Below the pieces are notes generated by a model. The model had not been told where the DNA came from, did no database searches, and was given only the letters and a program-made list of their open reading frames with translations. DNA of 64,000 nucleotides from Synechococcus sp. WH 7803 (lineage in GTDB: Bacteria > Cyanobacteriota > Cyanobacteriia > PCC-6307 > Cyanobiaceae), in NCBI GenBank assembly GCA_000063505.1, contig CT971583.1:372001-436000 (forward strand), given 5' to 3'. Shown one piece after another: positions 13,792 to 62,488 of the stretch. Made by a program: the position numbers and the translations under genes. Position 1 is the stretch's first letter. The number at the start of each line of letters is the position of its first letter.

Positions 13792-15408
13792 ATGGACGAT
13801 TTCCCTCAGCAGTCAGCGCTTGCAGCCTCGGGCTCCGCCGCGGGAGAGCGCGTGTTGCTGGTGAGGCTTCCATGCAATCCCATTTTTCCGATCGGGCCGA
13901 TTTACCTGGCGGACCATCTGCACAAGTGCTTCCCAGGGTTGCCCCAACGCATTCTCGATCTGGCTGCTCTGCCGGTTCTGGACGTGCACCGCGTTCTGCG
14001 GATCACGATCGATCAGTTTCAGCCCACTCTGCTGGTGTTTTCTTGGCGGGATATTCAGATCTATGCCCCGGTGGATGGACGCGGCGGTAACCCTCTCCAA
14101 AATTCATTTGAGGTGTTTTATTCGCGCAATCCCCTGAAACGCCTGCACGGTGCCTTCGGTGGACTGCGTTTGATGACCAGTCACTACGGAGAGCTGCGTC
14201 GCAATCAAGCGCTTGTGAAGCAAGGCCTGCATCGCGCGCGTCGCTATCAGCCTCAAGCCAGAGCCGTTCTTGGCGGTGGAGCTGTGAGTGTGTTTTACGA
14301 GCAGCTTGGCCGCTCCCTGCCGAAAGGAACCATCGTCTCCATCGGGGAAGGGGAACCTCTGCTGGAGAAGCTCCTCAACGGCCAGAGCCTGGATGGCGAA
14401 CGTTGCTTCGTCGTCGGAGCGCCTCCACGTCCAGGCCTGATCCATGAACAGCCGGAGAGCCGCCCAAAAACGGCCTGCGATTACGACTACATCGCCTCGA
14501 TCTGGCCCCAATTGGATTGGTATCTCGAGGGCGGTGATTTCTACGTTGGAGTCCAGACCAAGCGGGGCTGCCCTCACAACTGCTGCTACTGCGTGTACAC
14601 GGTGGTGGAGGGCAAACAAGTCCGCCTCAATCCCGTAGACGAGGTGGTGAAGGAGATGCGCCAGCTCTATGACCGCGGCGTTCGCGGTTTCTGGTTCACC
14701 GATGCCCAGTTCATCCCGGCACGTCGCTACATCGAAGATGCCAAAGAGTTGCTGCGCGCGATCAAAGCCGAGGGACTCACGGACATTCGCTGGGCTGCTT
14801 ACATCCGTGCCGACAACCTCGATCCCGAGTTGGCCCAACTCATGGTGGACACCGGCATGAGTTACTTCGAAATCGGCATCACATCAGGGTCTCAGGAGCT
14901 CGTGCGCAAAATGCGCATGGGCTACAACCTGCGCACGGTTCTCGACAGCTGCAGGATGCTGGCTGAGGCCGGTTTCAACGATCACGTGTCTGTGAATTAC
15001 TCATTCAATGTGATTGATGAGCGCCCCGAAACCATTCGTCAAACCGTGGCTTACCACCGCGAGCTCGAGGCGATTTTTGGCGCCGACCGTGTGGAGCCAG
15101 CGATTTTCTTCATCGGTTTACAACCGCATACCCATCTCGAGCAATACGGATTCGACCAGGGATTGATCAAGCCCGGTTACAACCCGATGAGCATGATGCC
15201 GTGGACGGCCAGAAAGCTTCTCTGGAATCCAGAGCCCATGGGCAGCACGTTCGGTCGGGTGTGTTTGGAAGCCTTTGATGCGAACCCATCGGATTTTGGT
15301 CGAACGGTGATGGATCTGTTGGAACGGGATTACGGCACTTCAACCCTCAATGAAGCCCTGCGGGCTCCGGTTCAGGGGCGTGGTGCTTTAGCTAACGCCG
15401 TCAGCTGA
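13792..15408 (+). CDS. B12-binding-type radical SAM protein next to psbA
   Basis: 538 residues. The N-terminal ~200 residues resemble a cobalamin-binding-type domain of BchE/PhpK-like enzymes, with LGGGAVSVFYEQL and VSIGEGEPLLEKLL. The radical SAM core has CxxxCxxC as Cys260, Cys264 and Cys267, binding the 4Fe-4S cluster and SAM, followed by RGVRGFWFTDAQFIP. I recall homologues being named 'photosystem II high light acclimation radical SAM protein' in public annotation, which I cannot check. Its divergent position against the Glu130 psbA fits that name. The substrate is unknown. Its 3' end overlaps the convergent CPBP gene by 37 bases. Confidence 0.87.
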   Translation: MDDFPQQSALAASGSAAGERVLLVRLPCNPIFPIGPIYLADHLHKCFPGLPQRILDLAALPVLDVHRVLRITIDQFQPTLLVFSWRDIQIYAPVDGRGGNPLQNSFEVFYSRNPLKRLHGAFGGLRLMTSHYGELRRNQALVKQGLHRARRYQPQARAVLGGGAVSVFYEQLGRSLPKGTIVSIGEGEPLLEKLLNGQSLDGERCFVVGAPPRPGLIHEQPESRPKTACDYDYIASIWPQLDWYLEGGDFYVGVQTKRGCPHNCCYCVYTVVEGKQVRLNPVDEVVKEMRQLYDRGVRGFWFTDAQFIPARRYIEDAKELLRAIKAEGLTDIRWAAYIRADNLDPELAQLMVDTGMSYFEIGITSGSQELVRKMRMGYNLRTVLDSCRMLAEAGFNDHVSVNYSFNVIDERPETIRQTVAYHRELEAIFGADRVEPAIFFIGLQPHTHLEQYGFDQGLIKPGYNPMSMMPWTARKLLWNPEPMGSTFGRVCLEAFDANPSDFGRTVMDLLERDYGTSTLNEALRAPVQGRGALANAVS

Positions 15409-16286
15409 AGAGCCAGCACAACGGTGAGAGCGGCGATTCCCACCAGGCCTCCCAGGGGATTGGGGTGGGCCCCTCCGGGGCCGATGAGCCACTGCGGTGC
15501 GCTTGGCGAAATCTGAAGCAAGCCTCCTTGAAGAGCGAACCATCCGCCGACAAGCCCGCCGTGCAAGCCGACGCATCCCCAGAGGGAACCGTCATTCAGT
15601 CGTCTCTGTACCGCTAAAACCAGGCCGAGCAGGGTGAGTCCCACGAGCAGGCCCAGCATGGGGAGAACATCGAGATTGAATCGGGTGTGCACCAAGCTGA
15701 AAATCACGGCCTGGGTCACAACGGCGGTGCGAGGCCTGGTGAACTGCGCGAGTTCTCCCCAGAGCCATCCTCGGAACAACAGCTCTTCGGCGAGTCCTAC
15801 GCCGAAGCACAACGCCAGGGCATTGAGAGCATCCGCAGCGCTGAGTTCGCCGAGCCAGCGTCCCCAGGACCCGACGATGAGCGGCAGGCTGATCAAGGTG
15901 AGCAGTCCAACCGACTGAACGAGACCTGTCATCAGGCATCGCCCTGAGGACGGCCCCTGTCTGCGGCTGCGCAACCCCAGGATTCGCCAAGGCTGGCGAC
16001 TGCTCCAGCGTTGCCTGACCCAGCTCGGAAGGATCACGACAAAAAGCACCAGGCTCAAGGCGGTGCCGATCAGGCTCAGCCTCGATGCTGTGGTCTCTGG
16101 GAGAACGAGCAGCAACGGCTGCGTCAGCATCCAACCCAGCCCATAAAGCGCAGGGATCAGCACAATGGTGGCGATCCAGCGCGGACGGGCTTGAAGCAGG
16201 CTTTTCCAGGTCTGGACGATGGACTTGACGATCAGTTCTCCGGTTCGATAGTGCTGGTGAGTCCCTTGCCCTTCAGGGTTTCGCAA
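15372..16286 (-). CDS. CPBP (CAAX protease/bacteriocin-processing) family membrane protein
   Basis: A polytopic membrane protein of the CPBP/Abi family, intramembrane metal-dependent endopeptidases. The motif EELLFRGWLWGEL (EExxxR) and the later VIFSLVHTRFNLDVLP (His/Asn motif) are the catalytic signatures; both are intact. About seven membrane segments are visible. No ATG lies near the N-terminus: TTG at 16286 overlaps clpS, and GTG at 16163 would begin inside the first membrane segment. Substrate unknown; cyanobacterial members are numerous. The gene is downstream of clpS and probably co-transcribed with it. Confidence 0.82.
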   Translation of the reverse strand: MRNPEGQGTHQHYRTGELIVKSIVQTWKSLLQARPRWIATIVLIPALYGLGWMLTQPLLLVLPETTASRLSLIGTALSLVLFVVILPSWVRQRWSSRQPWRILGLRSRRQGPSSGRCLMTGLVQSVGLLTLISLPLIVGSWGRWLGELSAADALNALALCFGVGLAEELLFRGWLWGELAQFTRPRTAVVTQAVIFSLVHTRFNLDVLPMLGLLVGLTLLGLVLAVQRRLNDGSLWGCVGLHGGLVGGWFALQGGLLQISPSAPQWLIGPGGAHPNPLGGLVGIAALTVVLALQLTALAKAPRP

Positions 16287-16552
16287 TAGAACTCCGCGGG
16301 CTCGAGGTCGCAAACGATCACCAGGCCCACGCCGGTGTTGTGCGCTTCGAGCATGACCGCCATGGCGTCTTGCTCGCTGAGCTGCGGGACCACTTGCCTG
16401 AGCGTGGAGACCACGTACTCCATGGAGTTCACAGGGTCGTTGTGGAGCAGCACCTTGTAGCGCGGCGATTGCTTGCGCACGCGCTCAGGGGCTTTCTCCA
16501 GCACAGCCGCTCCACCAGGGGTGCGGCTGGGGGTCTCCACGGCCATGACCAT
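16232..16552 (-). CDS. clpS: ATP-dependent Clp protease adaptor ClpS
   Basis: ClpS binds ClpC or ClpA and delivers N-degron substrates. The about 106-residue protein has the core signature YKVLLHNDPVNSMEYVV with the N-end-residue binding HNDP motif, and a C-terminal half with EAHNTGVGLVIVCDLEPAEFY. The frame extends upstream to 16591, but ATG at 16552 or 16546 gives a normal N-terminus. It follows dapL closely on the same strand. Cyanobacteria often have two ClpS proteins; which this is remains open. Confidence 0.92.
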   Translation of the reverse strand: MVMAVETPSRTPGGAAVLEKAPERVRKQSPRYKVLLHNDPVNSMEYVVSTLRQVVPQLSEQDAMAVMLEAHNTGVGLVIVCDLEPAEFYCETLKGKGLTSTIEPEN

Positions 16553-39306: not shown

Positions 39307-41055
39307 TTAGCTGAGTTCGGCGCCCGGATATCCCCTCGGGGTCACCATGCGCCCGCCTTCCATGGTGCTGCTGCTGTTGCCGATCACCAGCACTGTGAGC
39401 ATGTCCACCTGGGTCACAGGCAGAGCCTTGAGGCCATGCAGGGTCACCTGTTCTTCTGTGCGGCCCAGCTGACGGGCCATCACCACGGGTGTGTGCTCGG
39501 GACGATGGCCGAGAAGAATCTCCTGGGCCCGTTGCAGCTGCCAGTCGCGGCCTTTGGATCGCGGGTTGTAAAGAGCGACGACGAAGTCGCCGGCTGCTGC
39601 GGCGTGCAGCCGTTGTTCAATCACAGGCCAGGGCGTGAGGCGATCGCTGAGGCTGATGGTGCAGAAGTCATGCATCAGCGGCGCTCCGGCCCGGGCCGCC
39701 GCCAGTTGAAGAGCGGAGAGGCCTGGATGCACCTCGAACAACGGACGTGAGCGTTCAGCCAGCGCCATCCATAGCTCGAGGGCCAGCCCGGCCATGCCGT
39801 AGATGCCGCTGTCGCCAGACGACACCAGCGCCACTCTGGCTCCCTGCTGAGCAAGGGACAGGGCCTGCTGGCAACGGTCCCGTTCGCGGGTGAGTTGACC
39901 GTCCAGCCGCACCTGGTCCTGGCGGCGCAGCGGTTCGAGCAGATCCAGGTACAACCCGTAGCCCACCCAGACCCCGCAGCGACTCAACGCGCGGCGGGCA
40001 TCGGGGGTGAGCAGGCTGAGATCCCCTGGACCGCTGCCGATGAGGTGCAGTTCTCCCCGTTGCGGTGCAAAGGGCTGCGCCGCTTCGGCGATCGCCACGG
40101 TGACTGCACCCTGCTCCTCAGGCCCGGCATGGAGGATGCGTTTGCTCTGTAAGAGCTGGGCACCTTCCCCAGCGGCCAGCAGAGCCGCGGCTTCCGCAAC
40201 CGATGCTGTGCCTATCTCCGCTTCGACGACGGCCGACGGTGTTGGCACCGGTACTGCCGCGAGGGCTGAGGCGCTGAAGAACCTGACTGTCCAGTCGCAG
40301 TCCTGCGCCAAGGCGAGCAAAGCGGGCTCATCGCTCTTGATCTCGATGCTGCCGAAGCCAGCAACGGCCTCGGCAGCCAGCCCTGCGCTCTCCAGTGCTT
40401 GATGAATGGCGCGTTCAATCAGGCACTGGCTCGTGTTGCGTTCGCAGCCGAGGCCCAGCCACAAGGTGGCTGGATGCCAGCGACAGGGTGCGGCGTGACT
40501 CCCAGGACCAATCGCCAGCTCGGACCTGTCATCAGGGTTTGAGGTGAATGCCAAGGTGCTGGCTGAGGCACAAGCGCGCCAGTGTTCGCTGCCGCTTTGC
40601 TGCCTCACCGCAATCGGGCTTCCCTGGGCCTGTTGGATCATCAGCCGGCGCCAGGCATCGGTCGTGCCACTGCGCCGAAACCCCCAGATTTCTCCGAAGG
40701 AATCCAGCGCAAGCCGCCCCTGCGTGGCTGCATCACCGGTGATCACTGCGGTACCCCCAAGCGATGCTGCGAGCTCCCTGGCCAACTGTTCCCCTCCGGC
40801 GCGATGCCCGCCCAGAAGAGGGACCACCTGCAGACCCTGGGTATCAAGCACCAGAACAGCCGGATCGCTCTCTTTGTCGTTGATCAGCGGGGCGATCAGT
40901 CGGGTGACGGCTCCAAGAGCTCCAACCACAATCAGGCGACCGCCCTCGCGCCAGTGTGTCTGCAAGAGCTCACTGGCGCTCGCCACCAGCACTGAATCTG
41001 GGCAGGGATCGAGGGATGCAGCGGCACTGGGGGAGAGCGCGATGCGTTCGCTCAA
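39307..41055 (-). CDS. cobJ: CbiG/CobJ fusion, cobalamin biosynthesis
   Basis: A two-domain corrin-pathway protein. The first ~320 residues resemble CbiG, which opens the delta-lactone ring of cobalt-precorrin-5A (VVGALGAVTRLIAPLI, LGLGCERNTS). From about 335 the sequence is a precorrin-3B C17-methyltransferase, CobJ (LHLIGSGPGDLSLLTPDAR, VALVSSGDSGIYGMAG, VVALYNPRSKGRDWQ). The TTG at 41055 is the only standard start codon before a TGA. CbiG-like sequence (LAIGLSRSAWPLLQRLANQG) continues in frame upstream to about 41115, so the true start may be a CTG there. Confidence 0.9.
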   Translation of the reverse strand: MSERIALSPSAAASLDPCPDSVLVASASELLQTHWREGGRLIVVGALGAVTRLIAPLINDKESDPAVLVLDTQGLQVVPLLGGHRAGGEQLARELAASLGGTAVITGDAATQGRLALDSFGEIWGFRRSGTTDAWRRLMIQQAQGSPIAVRQQSGSEHWRACASASTLAFTSNPDDRSELAIGPGSHAAPCRWHPATLWLGLGCERNTSQCLIERAIHQALESAGLAAEAVAGFGSIEIKSDEPALLALAQDCDWTVRFFSASALAAVPVPTPSAVVEAEIGTASVAEAAALLAAGEGAQLLQSKRILHAGPEEQGAVTVAIAEAAQPFAPQRGELHLIGSGPGDLSLLTPDARRALSRCGVWVGYGLYLDLLEPLRRQDQVRLDGQLTRERDRCQQALSLAQQGARVALVSSGDSGIYGMAGLALELWMALAERSRPLFEVHPGLSALQLAAARAGAPLMHDFCTISLSDRLTPWPVIEQRLHAAAAGDFVVALYNPRSKGRDWQLQRAQEILLGHRPEHTPVVMARQLGRTEEQVTLHGLKALPVTQVDMLTVLVIGNSSSTMEGGRMVTPRGYPGAELS

Positions 41056-41175
41056 GCCCTGGTTTGCCAGGCGCTGAAGCAGCGGCCAGGCGCTCCGTGA
41101 GAGTCCGATGGCCAGCGTTGCAGCACCAGAGCGTGATGGGGAAGACGGGTCGTTCAGAACTGCAGCCTCGGATGG

Positions 41176-42510
41176 TCAGCGCTGGGTGCCATCAGCGTTC
41201 AATAGCTCCCTCGCCGATCCTCCCAGGCTGCTGGATGGTGCTGCCTGCGGAGCTTCCTGTTGCGGTGCTGGCGCAGGGGCGCTTTCGGCGCTGGGAGGTG
41301 TGTCCTCTTGGGGGGTGTCCTCTTGGGGGACTTCCTCGGGACGCGCGTCTGCGGAGGTTGGTGTCTCCGCAGCGGTGGCTTCTGGGGGGAGGACCTCCTC
41401 AGCTGGCCCTTCAATGGCCTCCTCAGTGGCCTCCTCCATGGGCTCATTCATGGGTTCGTCCAAGGGCTTCTCGAGCGCGACTGGCTCCTGCACAACCTGC
41501 GGTTCAGTGGCTGGTTCTGTGGCTGGTTCTGTGGCTGATTCCAGTTCTGGGTCTGGGGATTCGTCCGACTTGACCACGTCTCCCAGCAGTCGGGCGATCT
41601 GCGCGTCACTGAGCCGGGATTGCATCCAGATGGGGCGCGATCCCGGCTGATGGGTGATTGGCCGAAGTTGGTTATTGAACACAGGGCTCATCGGTTCACC
41701 CACGCCATCCAGGAGCTCCATCTGCACGCGCCCAGGCCCATTGCCGCCCCCCTTGATCCAGAGAGACTCCTGTCGGTCCACCAGAAAACTGTCTCCATTC
41801 ACGGAGATTCGCAGCCTCCAGCGAGCGTCTCCTTCGCGCAGGTTCTGCAGCGGTGCGTTCCAAATCAGCCAATCGAGAAAAAGGGGCTCACCGCCGCCCA
41901 GGTCCGACGGACTGACCATGGCAAGCCAGGGGGCGTCAGGTGCTGGCTGCGTTCCTTCAAGACCTTGAAGCTGATCAAAACGCCATTGCAAACTGGCTCC
42001 AGGGGTTTTCACCGCTTCGCCCCAGGGCATGGCCGCATAAGCGGTGAAACGGTGGCTTCCCGCTGTGAGCGCTGGGAGTTGGATGCGCAAGCGTCCGCCC
42101 TCGGCTTCGCTGAATCGCAGTGGAGGCTGGTCATCGATCTGCAGCGCCACATGGGCTCCCAGGCCGAACTCGGGATCCTGGGCCAGGGGCCAGTCGCTCA
42201 CCTGCAGCACCAGGGTTTGCTGGTTCGGCTGGAGCACCGTGCCATCGGCGGGGCTGGTGAGCTGCAACTGAGGATGATGAGCCGCCAGGGCTGTCTGAAG
42301 TTGTTGAACCGCCCCTGGAGGCGCCACTTCCTGCAGGCGTCCGCTTGGGGCAGTGGGAGCCAAGGGATCCACGGCTGACCCGGTCTCCATCGATCCCATC
42401 CGCCCCCATCCCCAGGCCGAGGCCGGCTCTGCGCTGGTGACCAGCAACACAACGCTGAGGAGAGCAGTGATCCAGCGGAGCCAGGATTGAAATCGGCCCG
42501 AAGCCGTCAT
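41176..42510 (-). CDS. Exported acidic repeat protein upstream of psaA
   Basis: 444 residues, not recognised. An N-terminal signal peptide (WITALLSVVLLVTSAEPASA) is followed by beta-rich segments containing PLAPTAPSG and LTSPADGTVL, possibly an immunoglobulin-like fold. From about residue 300 the chain is low-complexity, rich in Glu, Pro, Ala and Thr with (ATEP)n and QEDTP units, ending in a predicted unstructured tail. The ATG at 42510 is preferred to a TTG nine bases upstream. It is divergent from psaA and in the same frame as the downstream CbiG/CobJ gene. Confidence 0.75.
   Translation of the reverse strand: MTASGRFQSWLRWITALLSVVLLVTSAEPASAWGWGRMGSMETGSAVDPLAPTAPSGRLQEVAPPGAVQQLQTALAAHHPQLQLTSPADGTVLQPNQQTLVLQVSDWPLAQDPEFGLGAHVALQIDDQPPLRFSEAEGGRLRIQLPALTAGSHRFTAYAAMPWGEAVKTPGASLQWRFDQLQGLEGTQPAPDAPWLAMVSPSDLGGGEPLFLDWLIWNAPLQNLREGDARWRLRISVNGDSFLVDRQESLWIKGGGNGPGRVQMELLDGVGEPMSPVFNNQLRPITHQPGSRPIWMQSRLSDAQIARLLGDVVKSDESPDPELESATEPATEPATEPQVVQEPVALEKPLDEPMNEPMEEATEEAIEGPAEEVLPPEATAAETPTSADARPEEVPQEDTPQEDTPPSAESAPAPAPQQEAPQAAPSSSLGGSARELLNADGTQR
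41297..41341 (-). repeat. Tandem near-15-base coding repeat
   Basis: Units of about 15 bases (GGTGTCCTCTTGGGG on the plus strand) encode the PQEDT repeats near the end of the acidic protein. Approximate bounds. Confidence 0.5.
41501..41536 (-). repeat. Three tandem 12-base units encoding EPAT
   Basis: GGTTCAGTGGCT, GGTTCTGTGGCT and GGTTCTGTGGCT (plus strand) are consecutive 12-base units; the last two are identical, a sign of recent slippage or amplification. Confidence 0.75.
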
Positions 42511-42924
42511 GGGGACCAACTCAAGATCAGTCCATTCTGAATGCTCATGCCGGAGTCAGGAGATTCGGCGCAATTTGCATTACTTAGTGAGGCATTTTTT
42601 CGTTTGCGTGGATAATTTCTTGGGCAATTTAAAACTTTTTGTTGATAGCGGGCGTCATGAAAACGTCAGGCCCAGACAGGCGCGCGGCCGGATTGAACCT
42701 TTGTAACTCCATGGGGTCTTCTGTGCATCTGCGCCCCTATGCTTCCGCCAGCGGTCCCCTCTTTGGGGCCCAGCGCTCCAGTGGCCGACAGGGGTTTCGC
42801 TCCTGTCGCCATTGGCGCCCGGTCGTGGTGACGCTTCGCGGAGCTGCGTCCGGGGCCCCGGTGAACATCTGTTTATCGGAGGGGTGGCCCACCACCTCGA
42901 TCCCGTCCCTCGAGGAACGACTCG
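42511..42924 (+). promoter_or_regulatory. psaA upstream region
   Basis: 414 bases without a gene, lying between the divergent starts of the acidic protein and psaA. TATGCT at 42738-42743 is the best -10 box. GTTACAAA on the minus strand at 42700-42707 matches one HLR1 half-site. The leader to the psaA ATG would be about 170 bases, with a GAGGA box before the start. Nothing coding is seen. Confidence 0.5.
42690..42707 (-). promoter_or_regulatory. HLR1-like element (candidate RpaB site) before psaA
   Basis: On the minus strand GTTACAAA (42707 to 42700) matches the 8-base HLR1 half-site; the second half after 2 bases, TTCAATCC, matches at only 3 of 8 positions. RpaB is known to control photosystem I genes through HLR1 elements. 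About 30 bases upstream of the -10. Confidence 0.35.
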
Positions 42925-45228
42925 ATGACCATCAGCCCACCAGAGCGTGGGAGCACCGCGAAGACTCAGGTTGAAAAGGTTGACAATCCAGCAACCTTCG
43001 AGCTGTTCGGCAAGCCCGGACACTTCGACCGAGCTCTCGCGAAAGGTCCCAAAACCACCACTTGGGTTTGGAACCTCCACGCCAATGCTCACGATTTCGA
43101 CAGCCACACGAGTGACCTTGAGGAGGTCTCTCGGAAGATCTTCAGTGCTCACTTCGGCCATCTGGCCGTGATCTTCATCTGGCTAAGCGGTGCCTTCTTC
43201 CATGGAGCCCGCTTCTCCAATTTCTCCGGTTGGCTTGCTGACCCCACCCACGTGAAGCCCAGCGCTCAGGTGGTGTGGCCAGTGTTCGGCCAGGAGATCC
43301 TCAATGGCGATATGGGTGCCGGTTTCCAGGGCATTCAGATCACCTCAGGCCTCTTCCATGTCTGGCGTGCCTGGGGCATCACCAACGAAACGCAGCTGAT
43401 GTCTTTGGCCATCGGCGCTCTGGTGATGGCCGGCCTGATGCTCAATGCAGGCGTTTTCCACTATCACAAAGCAGCTCCAAAGCTGGAGTGGTTCCAGAAC
43501 GTTGAGTCGATGCTCAACCACCACCTCGCTGGACTGCTCGGCCTCGGGTCACTGTCCTGGACAGGTCACCTTCTGCACGTGTCCCTGCCCACCACCAAGT
43601 TGATGGATGCCATCGACGCCGGCCAGCCGCTGGTGCTCAATGGCAAGACCATCGCTTCTGTGGCGGACATCCCCCTGCCGCACGAATTCTTCAATCAGGA
43701 TTTGCTGGCGCAGCTCTATCCCGGATTCGGTGCCGGTATCGGTGCTTTCTTCTCGGGTAACTGGGCCGCCTACAGCGATTTCCTCACCTTCAAGGGTGGT
43801 CTGAATCCAGTCACCGGCAGCATGTGGATGAGCGATATCGCCCATCACCATCTGGCCATCGCGGTGCTGTTCATCGTGGCCGGTCACATGTACCGCACGA
43901 ACTGGGGCATCGGTCACTCCATCAAGGAGATCCTTGAAGGCCAGAAGGGTGATCCCCTGCTGTTCCCTGCCACGAAGGGCCATGACGGCCTGTTCGAGTT
44001 CATGACCACAAGCTGGCACGCCCAGCTGGCTGTGAACCTCGCCATGCTCGGTTCCCTGAGCATCATCGTGGCCCAGCACATGTATGCGATGCCTCCATAC
44101 GCCTACATGTCAATCGACTACCCGACGCAGATCGGTTTGTTCACCCATCACATGTGGATTGGTGGCTTCCTGATCGTCGGTGCGGCAGCGCACGCTGCCA
44201 TCGCGATGATCCGCGATTACGACCCTGCCAAGCATGTGGACAACGTGCTCGACCGGGTGCTGAAGGCTCGTGACGCCCTGATCAGCCACCTCAACTGGGT
44301 GTGCATCTGGCTGGGCTTCCACAGCTTCGGCCTCTACATCCACAACGACACCATGCGTGCTCTGGGGCGTCCCCAGGACATGTTCAGCGACTCAGCGATT
44401 CAGCTGAAGCCTGTGTTCGCACAGTGGATTCAGGGACTGCACGCCGCTGCTGCTGGCAGCACTGCTCCCAACGCCCTTGCGGGTGTCAGCGAGGTGTTCA
44501 ACGGTTCCGTCGTTGCCGTGGGTGGCAAGGTTGCAGCAGCGCCGATCCCCCTGGGCACCGCCGATTTCATGGTGCACCACATCCACGCCTTCACGATTCA
44601 CGTGACGGTGTTGATCCTGCTCAAGGGTGTGCTCTACGCCCGTAATTCCCGCCTCATCCCTGATAAGGCCAATCTTGGCTTCCGTTTCCCTTGCGACGGC
44701 CCCGGCCGTGGCGGCACCTGCCAGGTGTCCGCATGGGACCACGTGTTCCTGGGTCTGTTCTGGATGTACAACTCCCTCTCCATCGTGATCTTCCACTTCT
44801 CCTGGAAGATGCAGAGCGATGTGTGGGGAACGGTGAATGCTGACGGTTCCGTTCAGCACATCACCAACGGCAATTTTGCCAACAGCGCCATCACCATCAA
44901 CGGCTGGCTGCGTGACTTCCTGTGGGCTCAGGCTGCTCAGGTGATCAACAGCTACGGCTCCAACACCAGCGCCTATGGCCTGATGTTCCTTGGTGCTCAC
45001 TTCGTCTGGGCCTTCAGCCTGATGTTCCTGTTCAGCGGCCGCGGCTACTGGCAAGAGCTGATCGAGTCCATTGTTTGGGCTCACAACAAGCTGAAGGTGG
45101 CCCCCGCCATCCAGCCCCGTGCGCTGTCCATCACCCAGGGCCGTGCCGTGGGTGTCGCTCATTACCTCTTGGGCGGCATTGCGACCACATGGGCCTTCTT
45201 CCACGCCCACATCCTTGTGGTCGGCTGA
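42925..45228 (+). CDS. psaA: Photosystem I P700 apoprotein A1
   Basis: PsaA and PsaB form the photosystem I core and bind P700, A0, A1 and the Fx cluster. The 767-residue protein has eleven membrane helices. It carries the conserved Fx loop [19 protein letters not shown], whose two cysteines are ligands shared with PsaB, and the C-terminal [19 protein letters not shown] with P700 ligand and electron-transfer region. The ATG follows a GAGGA box. psaB follows 22 bases downstream. Confidence 0.98.
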
Positions 45229-61211: not shown

Positions 61212-62105
61212 TTACCAGCTTGGAGGATCCGGTGGTGGATCTTCCGAAGCCAGACAAAAAGTCGGTTGACAATCGTACCAGCCACCCTCACTGAAGATGC
61301 TGTCTTCGTAGCCAGCCCTGAGCAGGCAGAGGCCCTGAGGAGGCGCCCCATCCTTCACCTCGTCGCGCCGGCGTTCCCGCCAGCGGCGCTCAAACTGGTC
61401 TGGTGTGAGCCGATGTTCTCCGACGGCCACCAATTGCCCCATCATCAGGCGCACCATTCCATAGAGAAAGCCGCTGGCCTGAACTTCCAGGTCGATCAGA
61501 TCGCCCCGCCGTTGAACGGAGACATCCTGAATGGTGGTTCGTGAGTGCGCTCTTCGGCTGCCAGCGCGCTGGAAGGCTGCAAAGTCATGACTGCCCAGCA
61601 TGCCCTCGAGGGCCGCAGCCATGGCCTGCTCATCAAGCCGGGCTTGATAGCGATGCCATGTCCAGGGCGCGAGAAAGAGATTGGGGCGTCGGCCGTTGTA
61701 AAGGGTGTAGCGATAGCGCCGGTAGGTGGCTGAGTAGCAGGCATGCCAGGAGAGCGGCCGTTCCACGGCTTCACGCACTCGGATGCTGGCGGGCAGCCGC
61801 CCATTCAAGGCCGGCGCCCAGCGACTGGCGGGAATCGGACCACTGCTGTCGAAATGCACAACCTGTCCGGCCGCATGCACACCGGCGTCAGTGCGACCAG
61901 CCGCGACGGCGTGGACCGGCCGGTGGGGATCGAGGTCAGCGATGGCCTGTTCCAGCACGCCTTGCACACTGGTGCCCTGCCGTTGCCGCTGCCAGCCACA
62001 AAAAAACGACCCCGCGTACTGGAGGCTGATGGCAATCCGCTGCGGCGAATCGGCTTCAGGTCCAGGTCGGGGGTCGTGAATTGTGCTGTGATCCGAAGGG
62101 GTCAG
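61212..62105 (-). CDS. truA: tRNA pseudouridine synthase A, with non-canonical start
   Basis: TruA makes pseudouridine at positions 38-40 of the anticodon stem. The catalytic aspartate is in [17 protein letters not shown], and [13 protein letters not shown] and [14 protein letters not shown] are family motifs. The first ATG/GTG/TTG (GTG at 61967) would remove the conserved N-terminal strand [19 protein letters not shown], which continues in frame upstream. No standard start codon occurs between there and an in-frame TGA at 62112-62114. I suggest CTG at 62105, which overlaps the rplQ stop as CTGA. The common YDG reads YAG. Confidence 0.88.
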
Positions 62106-62452
62106 ACCAACTCAATGATGGCCATCTCGGCATTGTCACCACGGCGGCGGACCGTGCGGGTGATTCGGGTGTACCCACCCTTGCGATCGCTGTAACGATC
62201 AGGTGCTTTTTCAAACAGTGCGTGCACAAGCTGTTTGTCATACACGTAGCCGAGGACGCGTCGTCGAGACGCCAGGCTGCCCTCTTTGGCCAAGGTGATC
62301 ATCCGCTCGGCTTCATCCCTCAGGGCCTTGGCACGGGCCTTGGTCGTGGTAACCCGGCCTTCGCGGATCAGTTGCGTGGTGAGACCACGCAACATGGCCT
62401 TGCGTTGGTCAGCTGGGCGGCCCAGCTGAGGAACTCGACATTGGTGACGCAT
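62102..62452 (-). CDS. rplQ: 50S ribosomal protein L17
   Basis: L17, 116 residues: [19 protein letters not shown] and [20 protein letters not shown], ending in the conserved [24 protein letters not shown]. It follows rpoA by 36 bases and overlaps the proposed truA CTG start by 4 bases, as usual in the cyanobacterial alpha operon. Confidence 0.97.
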
Positions 62453-62488
62453 GGTTCGGGTGAGGTCTGGGAATGGAGTGAGAAACGA

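Follow-up and report, generated by a model that had tools for sequence, protein, structure and literature searches.

A conserved CTG codon as the probable translation start of cbiG-cobJ in marine picocyanobacteria

The cbiG-cobJ gene of marine picocyanobacteria is very probably translated from a near-cognate CTG codon, found at positions 41157-41155 on the minus strand in Synechococcus sp. WH 7803, which the initiator tRNA would decode as formyl-methionine. This view comes from comparing the locus, which lies in a stretch of 64,000 nucleotides (hereafter the window, meaning the whole of the DNA analysed), with its counterparts in related genomes. The gene has no standard start codon (ATG, GTG or TTG), it carries CTG at one place more often than codon usage would lead one to expect, and some relatives have a standard start in that same column. 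The first-pass annotation of the window had left room for a sequencing error behind the missing start. Since the start is missing in dozens of independent genomes, such an error can be excluded, and the conserved CTG looks like a real quirk of translation.

The reading frame of cbiG-cobJ opens after a TGA (41178-41176, minus strand) and runs for 622 codons to the stop at 39307. As the first-pass annotation had stated, there is no ATG, GTG or TTG between this TGA and the CbiG N terminus, the TGA ends an acidic ORF that lies upstream and shares the frame, and the TTG at 41055 is the first standard start; reading the window sequence confirmed all three points. The first 40 codons are devoid of standard codons and the TTG occupies 41055-41053. 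The single ORF encodes the domains CbiG_N, CbiG_C and TP_methylase (Pfam) and matches NCBIfam TIGR01466. This is the domain order of the known CbiG-CobJ fusion (cobalt-precorrin 5A hydrolase / precorrin-3B C17-methyltransferase), from which the gene described here differs only in its start codon. Its N-terminal stretch, LAIGLSRSAWPLLQRLANQ, is conserved among relatives, and the DNA ahead of the first standard codon shows the third-position substitution bias of coding sequence in pairs of close relatives. The structure of CbiG points the same way. The chain of 3eeq aligns from its residue 48 onward with the cbiG-cobJ product (P0001) from residue 71 onward, so that about 47 residues are expected before this point, which places the natural N terminus near residue 24 of P0001, ahead of the TTG, which is residue 41. 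The upstream acidic ORF, of 447 amino acids, had no match in Pfam at an E value of 0.001; a homologue is present in 112 of the 171 loci collected, many of which include only about 700 nt of upstream DNA.

Matches to cbiG-cobJ were found in 148 of 151 genomes. The N-terminal DNA was obtained for 30 matches as loci, for 60 by region, for 80 of 112 further loci, and for 1 more. Of these 171 loci, 129 distinct ones were counted after alignment on the GLS motif. The other 42 were left out as duplicates, as incomplete, or because the motif was missing or lay more than 6 codons off (e.g., L139 and L160-L166). The 60 region loci were picked by hand with a preference for full-length and marine matches. 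Given such hand-picked and filtered sampling, the start-codon proportions given below are no estimates of prevalence, and all counts are made over related rows rather than independent events. A quick tree, rooted at the midpoint, split 55 Cyanobium-type rows (support 100) from the other 74. The latter, which we call marine, are the rest of this tree and not a tested clade; they comprise marine Synechococcus and Prochlorococcus, assigned by title where named and otherwise by tree position. Rows were then classed by the presence of a standard codon at -20 to -3 and of a CTG at -22 to -3, in codons counted from the GLS motif.

The two groups differ in their start codons. Among the 74 marine rows, 44 have only CTG, 17 have TTG, 8 have both and 5 have neither, with no row having only ATG or only GTG. 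Hence, 44 of the 74 lack any standard codon at -20 to -3. The 55 Cyanobium-type rows have ATG (29), GTG (12), TTG (6), a standard codon together with CTG (7) or neither (1), and none relies on CTG only. The one row with neither (L082) had its GLS motif misplaced by the script, and an ATG follows. Against the CTG reading, some CTG rows hold a standard codon that could serve instead: in six of them a TTG stands in frame at -21, just beyond the range of the rule, and four have another usable one (ATG at -6 in L032, L033 and L035, GTG at -4 in L003). In two marine loci the CTG column itself, at -14, is occupied by TTG (L127 and L137), the first of which also has an ATG at -26. The five marine loci with neither codon also speak against it; four of them (L029, L122, L131 and L136) have ATT or ATC at -11, and the fifth (L125) has ATT at -5. 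When the CTG-only rows, including that of the window, were scanned from 22 codons ahead of the GLS motif, the first standard codon was found at least 5 codons past the start of the motif in 33 of 44. Together with the third-position bias in close pairs, this indicates that the lack of a standard start is more than chance.

Several features single out the CTG at 41157-41155. In 52 of the 74 marine rows a CTG stands in frame at -22 to -9; when stretches of equal length were drawn at random 2000 times from these genes, the mean was 14.9 and the highest count 24. The excess is clearest in the AT-rich, Prochlorococcus-like subset of 48 rows, where CTG is a rare leucine codon in the gene bodies (94 of 1843 leucine codons, 5.1%). 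At column -14 of these rows it accounts for 19 of 22 leucine codons, the remaining three being two TTG and one CTT (binomial P near 4e-22 under independence of the rows, an assumption that their relatedness violates). The bases around the CTG are also constrained. Position -1 is a pyrimidine at 51 of the 52 marine CTGs versus 359 of 861 CTG codons in gene bodies, and +4 is an A at 44 of 52 versus 270 of 861; where a row has two CTGs (L017 and L035), the one with these flanking bases was taken. Position -2, which played no part in the choice, is a pyrimidine in all 50 rows picked by a pyrimidine at -1 and a purine at +4. A point against the CTG is that an exact match of at least 4 nt to the Shine-Dalgarno sequence precedes only 15 of 50 marine CTG sites (shuffled fraction 0.09), compared with 37 of 50 ATG or GTG sites of Cyanobium-type rows (shuffled 0.46). 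The invariance of CTG in 34 close pairs was discarded as evidence, because the pairs had been chosen for having CTG at equal offsets.

The onset of coding constraint fits this position. In close pairs, differences at codon positions 1, 2 and 3 number 74, 34 and 96 between the CTG and the GLS motif, a coding-like pattern, and 71, 73 and 62 in the 12 codons ahead of the CTG, where the pattern is flat. Of the two, the coding-like pattern carries more weight, since in several groups of Synechococcus the DNA before the CTG also encodes, in a different frame, the last part of the upstream gene, and this alone could make the pattern there flat. In six loci (L018, L022, L057, L118, L140 and L141) the in-frame stop is only 1 to 3 codons from the CTG.

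The first-pass annotation had already named CTG initiation as one way out and had suggested, as an example, the CTG at 41115-41113, which would give a product beginning just before IGLS. The kind of codon is strongly supported by the comparison; its place is not, the site favoured here being 41157-41155. The codon at 41115 is in frame and ahead of the conserved motif in the window, and CTG fills the equivalent column, at -2, in 9 of the 74 marine rows. However, this codon, two residues before GLS, varies in relatives (CTG, TTG, CTA, CTC, CTT, ATT, GTT and others), CTG makes up 0 of 10 leucine codons in this column in the AT-rich rows, and the coding pattern sets in further upstream. We thus regard a start at 41115 as very unlikely.

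A programmed frameshift of the prfB type, from an upstream ORF in another frame, deserves mention because the conserved CTGA includes a TGA. The window has a 12-codon ORF ending at that TGA, and in 32 of the 52 CTG rows one or both of the other frames can be read, by chance or otherwise, from a standard start through to the CTG without a stop. Yet in the other 20 neither of the two frames holds such an ORF, so frameshifting cannot be general, and eight of the 52 rows have no TGA at all, with CTGG in seven and CTGC in one. We give this explanation slightly less credit still than a start at 41115.

The true start could also be the downstream TTG at 41055, with the stretch upstream of it left untranslated. 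It is mechanically the first standard start, and the shorter protein would still fit Pfam CbiG_N. This reading is extremely improbable. At a fixed offset (gaps not being allowed for), a standard codon is found at this place in 1 of the 74 marine rows, the window's own, so the TTG is not a conserved start. The first-pass annotation had pointed to relatives whose CbiG also starts at the TTG as the case that would speak against its view; none of the other marine rows of the 74 has a standard codon at this offset. In addition, the upstream stretch, including the IGLSRSAWPLLQR region, is conserved as protein with third-position bias, and the TTG would leave 30 residues before residue 71 where the 3eeq alignment implies about 47.

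The other alternative offered by the first-pass annotation, readthrough of the upstream TGA, would yield a long fusion with the acidic protein. In the window the acidic ORF is indeed in the same frame, and only 18 nt separate the TGA from the CTG. Among relatives, however, the in-frame stop is TAA, TAG or TGA, at a distance of 1 to 53 codons, and in several of them the upstream ORF is in another frame, as judged by eye. With differences of 71, 73 and 62 at the three codon positions before the CTG, coding constraint is not continuous across the stop. Readthrough fails on the varying identity and distance of the stop and on the lack of a same-frame coding pattern before the CTG, and its probability is close to nil. 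Initiation at the CTG of 41157-41155 is the reading we keep, and the coordinates of the features are collected in Table 1.

Table 1. Features around the proposed start of cbiG-cobJ and the truA candidate, in window coordinates
Feature	Position	Strand	Basis or remark
Proposed CTG start of cbiG-cobJ	41155..41157	minus	616-aa product; context GTT-CTG-AAC; conserved CTG column, onset of coding pattern
GAGG, Shine-Dalgarno-like, 8 nt before the CTG	41166..41169	minus	read from sequence
cbiG-cobJ fusion, proposed CTG to stop	39307..41157	minus	Pfam CbiG_N, CbiG_C, TP_methylase; NCBIfam TIGR01466
Conserved N-terminal segment IGLSRSAWPLLQRLANQG, upstream of first standard start	41056..41109	minus	conserved across relatives; 3eeq alignment
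CTG candidate of the first-pass annotation	41113..41115	minus	codon variable, hydrophobic residue conserved
First standard start codon, TTG	41053..41055	minus	no conserved start; standard codon at this offset in 1 of 74 marine rows
TGA stop of upstream ORF, in the cbiG-cobJ frame	41176..41178	minus	window sequence
Upstream acidic 447-aa ORF, no assigned family	41176..42519	minus	no Pfam match at E 0.001
CTG candidate start of truA	62103..62105	minus	CTGA overlaps stop of upstream ORF 62102-62488; TruA by NCBIfam TIGR00071

How might such a start work? The initiator tRNA would read CUG with a mismatch at the first position, as it does with UUG and GUG, and a pyrimidine at -1 and an A at +4 fit an extended pairing with the initiator anticodon loop. 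The ribosome would initiate at the CTG of 41157-41155, and the bases at -1 and +4 may aid initiation by means of this extended pairing. The weak start could have been retained because only a low level of the cbiG-cobJ enzyme is needed. That a weak start has been kept for so long, giving way to TTG yet not to ATG, suggests that selection favours a low output of the enzyme. The lineages with TTG, and the few where only ATT or ATC is available, may then represent exchanges among weak starts.

Is cbiG-cobJ alone in this? We scanned 53 gene-like ORFs of the window against the syntenic stretches of five relatives. The one that stood out was cbiG-cobJ: its alignment with each of the five began 8 or more residues ahead of the first standard codon, and four of the five also lack a standard codon nearby. 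In truA and in the ORF at 42865-45228 the alignment also extends upstream in five of five relatives, yet there the relatives do have a standard codon, either at that point or ahead of it. The scan was widened, against one relative (G034), to 52 ORFs of the window plus 181 and 133 from two 200-kb stretches of the same genome. The identity cut was passed by 344 of these 366 ORFs, some of which are spurious (e.g., over rRNA), and the flagged rows were judged by eye. Beyond the window, this left two genes without a standard start in either genome, recF and panC-cmk. Two or three lineage-wide cases in 344 ORFs is a rough rate, since the scan detects a gene only if its next standard codon is at least 8 codons away.

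In recF (TIGR00611; G000:C1:463573-464709, L223:7573-8709), the first standard codon in the genome of the window is two codons before the Walker A motif. We sampled 50 of 96 matched genomes (the 30 best loci and 20 picked by hand). The start column is ATT in 39 loci, ATC in 8 and ATG in 3, the sample including Cyanobium-type genomes and the most AT-rich of the Prochlorococcus-like ones, and 14 of the 50 have a standard codon between 20 codons before and 11 after this column. The panC-cmk gene (NF010004; G000:C1:485114-486676, L224:9114-10676), for which 30 of 96 matched genomes were sampled, has a candidate CTG start, which 15 of 30 loci share at one column. Among the 15 loci from genomes with the marine type of cbiG or from their close kin, 12 have the CTG with no standard codon at -30 to -14 (three of them with a TTG at -13), and the other 3 have GTG one or two codons earlier. 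The CTGA of panC-cmk overlaps a TGA of another frame. Its CTG mostly follows a G at -1 and not a pyrimidine, so the context seen in cbiG-cobJ is not general. Taking these genes together, and going by sequence comparison, the chances seem to us about even that a set of housekeeping genes of marine picocyanobacteria keeps particular near-cognate starts, with a codon specific to each gene (CTG in cbiG-cobJ and panC-cmk, ATT or ATC in recF). This could reflect selection for weak initiation as an expression setting or a relaxed fidelity of initiation.

Fixed non-canonical starts are already known, and the novelty here lies in how deeply the start is conserved and in the constancy of its context. 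The available text of a study on Listeria reports that infC starts with ATT and rnhC with ATC, and that E. coli can use CTG, ATA, ATT and ATC as starts, though with lower rates (PMC13068326). Like infC, which encodes IF3 and has an AUU start, cbiG-cobJ has its near-cognate start at a fixed place. It differs in that the codon is CTG, in a B12 gene and in a fixed YY-CTG-A context kept across the lineage. Near-cognate initiation has also been described in a cyanobacterium: the part of a proteogenomic study of Nostoc sp. PCC 7120 available to us lists eight revised genes with ATA or ATT starts (PMC8557916). As far as that text goes, those cases are supported by peptides and involve ATA and ATT, whereas that of cbiG-cobJ rests on comparison and involves CTG. 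In the accessible portion of another paper, a GUS reporter with a CUG start gave no expression in tobacco chloroplasts or in E. coli, which counts against the CTG reading and against easy generalisation, and 20 ORFs with CUG starts are cited as annotated in 69 model bacterial genomes (PMC9845219). Our literature search, in which subscription journals were thinly covered, found no report of the CTG or ATT starts described here, nor of a lineage-conserved CTG with a fixed context.

These starts may have practical consequences. A gene finder restricted to ATG, GTG and TTG would truncate CbiG, and would truncate RecF almost to the Walker A motif, in abundant phototrophs of the ocean. The cbiG-cobJ loci also offer a natural series, within one gene, of CTG, TTG and possibly ATT or ATC starts, in which the effects of the start codon and of its flanking bases could be measured. 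Should the weak start be under selection, it could act as a translational setting on the synthesis of corrinoids (B12-type) in marine picocyanobacteria.

Two candidates were dropped. A near-cognate start of infC in the picocyanobacterial relatives was not retained, as 28 of 30 loci have ATG; in one of the other two the ATG is shifted downstream by one codon, and the second yielded no motif. The ORF at 15372-16484 was considered as prfB and set aside because of stops in a relative's translation of its upstream part.

Finally, a standard start is present in G034 but missing from the genome of the window in three genes: truA, cobS and a DNA-3-methyladenine glycosylase-like gene. The first-pass annotation had counted truA as a second case in the window. 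This is right for the genome of the window itself, but the case is of a weaker sort than cbiG-cobJ, since relatives offer standard codons. In a sample of 30 of 112, the CTG of truA is kept in the three relatives of the same genus that were read, which also have GTG or TTG before the conserved region, and in some Cyanobium-type rows; in the majority of the other relatives read, ATG, TTG or GTG is close by. Outside the window, the DNA-3-methyladenine glycosylase-like gene (identified by eye; G000:C1:365112-365810) has as its first standard codon a TTG 24 codons inside the stretch aligned with G034. Also outside the window, the cobS-like gene (likewise by eye; G000:C1:314852-315655) has no standard start before its conserved N terminus. 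In the sample of 29 of 30 fetched loci, four of them without the motif, one relative (L347) also lacks a standard start there but has a CTG, and most others have a standard one. The cobS-like gene is possibly another B12 gene with a start of the cbiG-cobJ sort.
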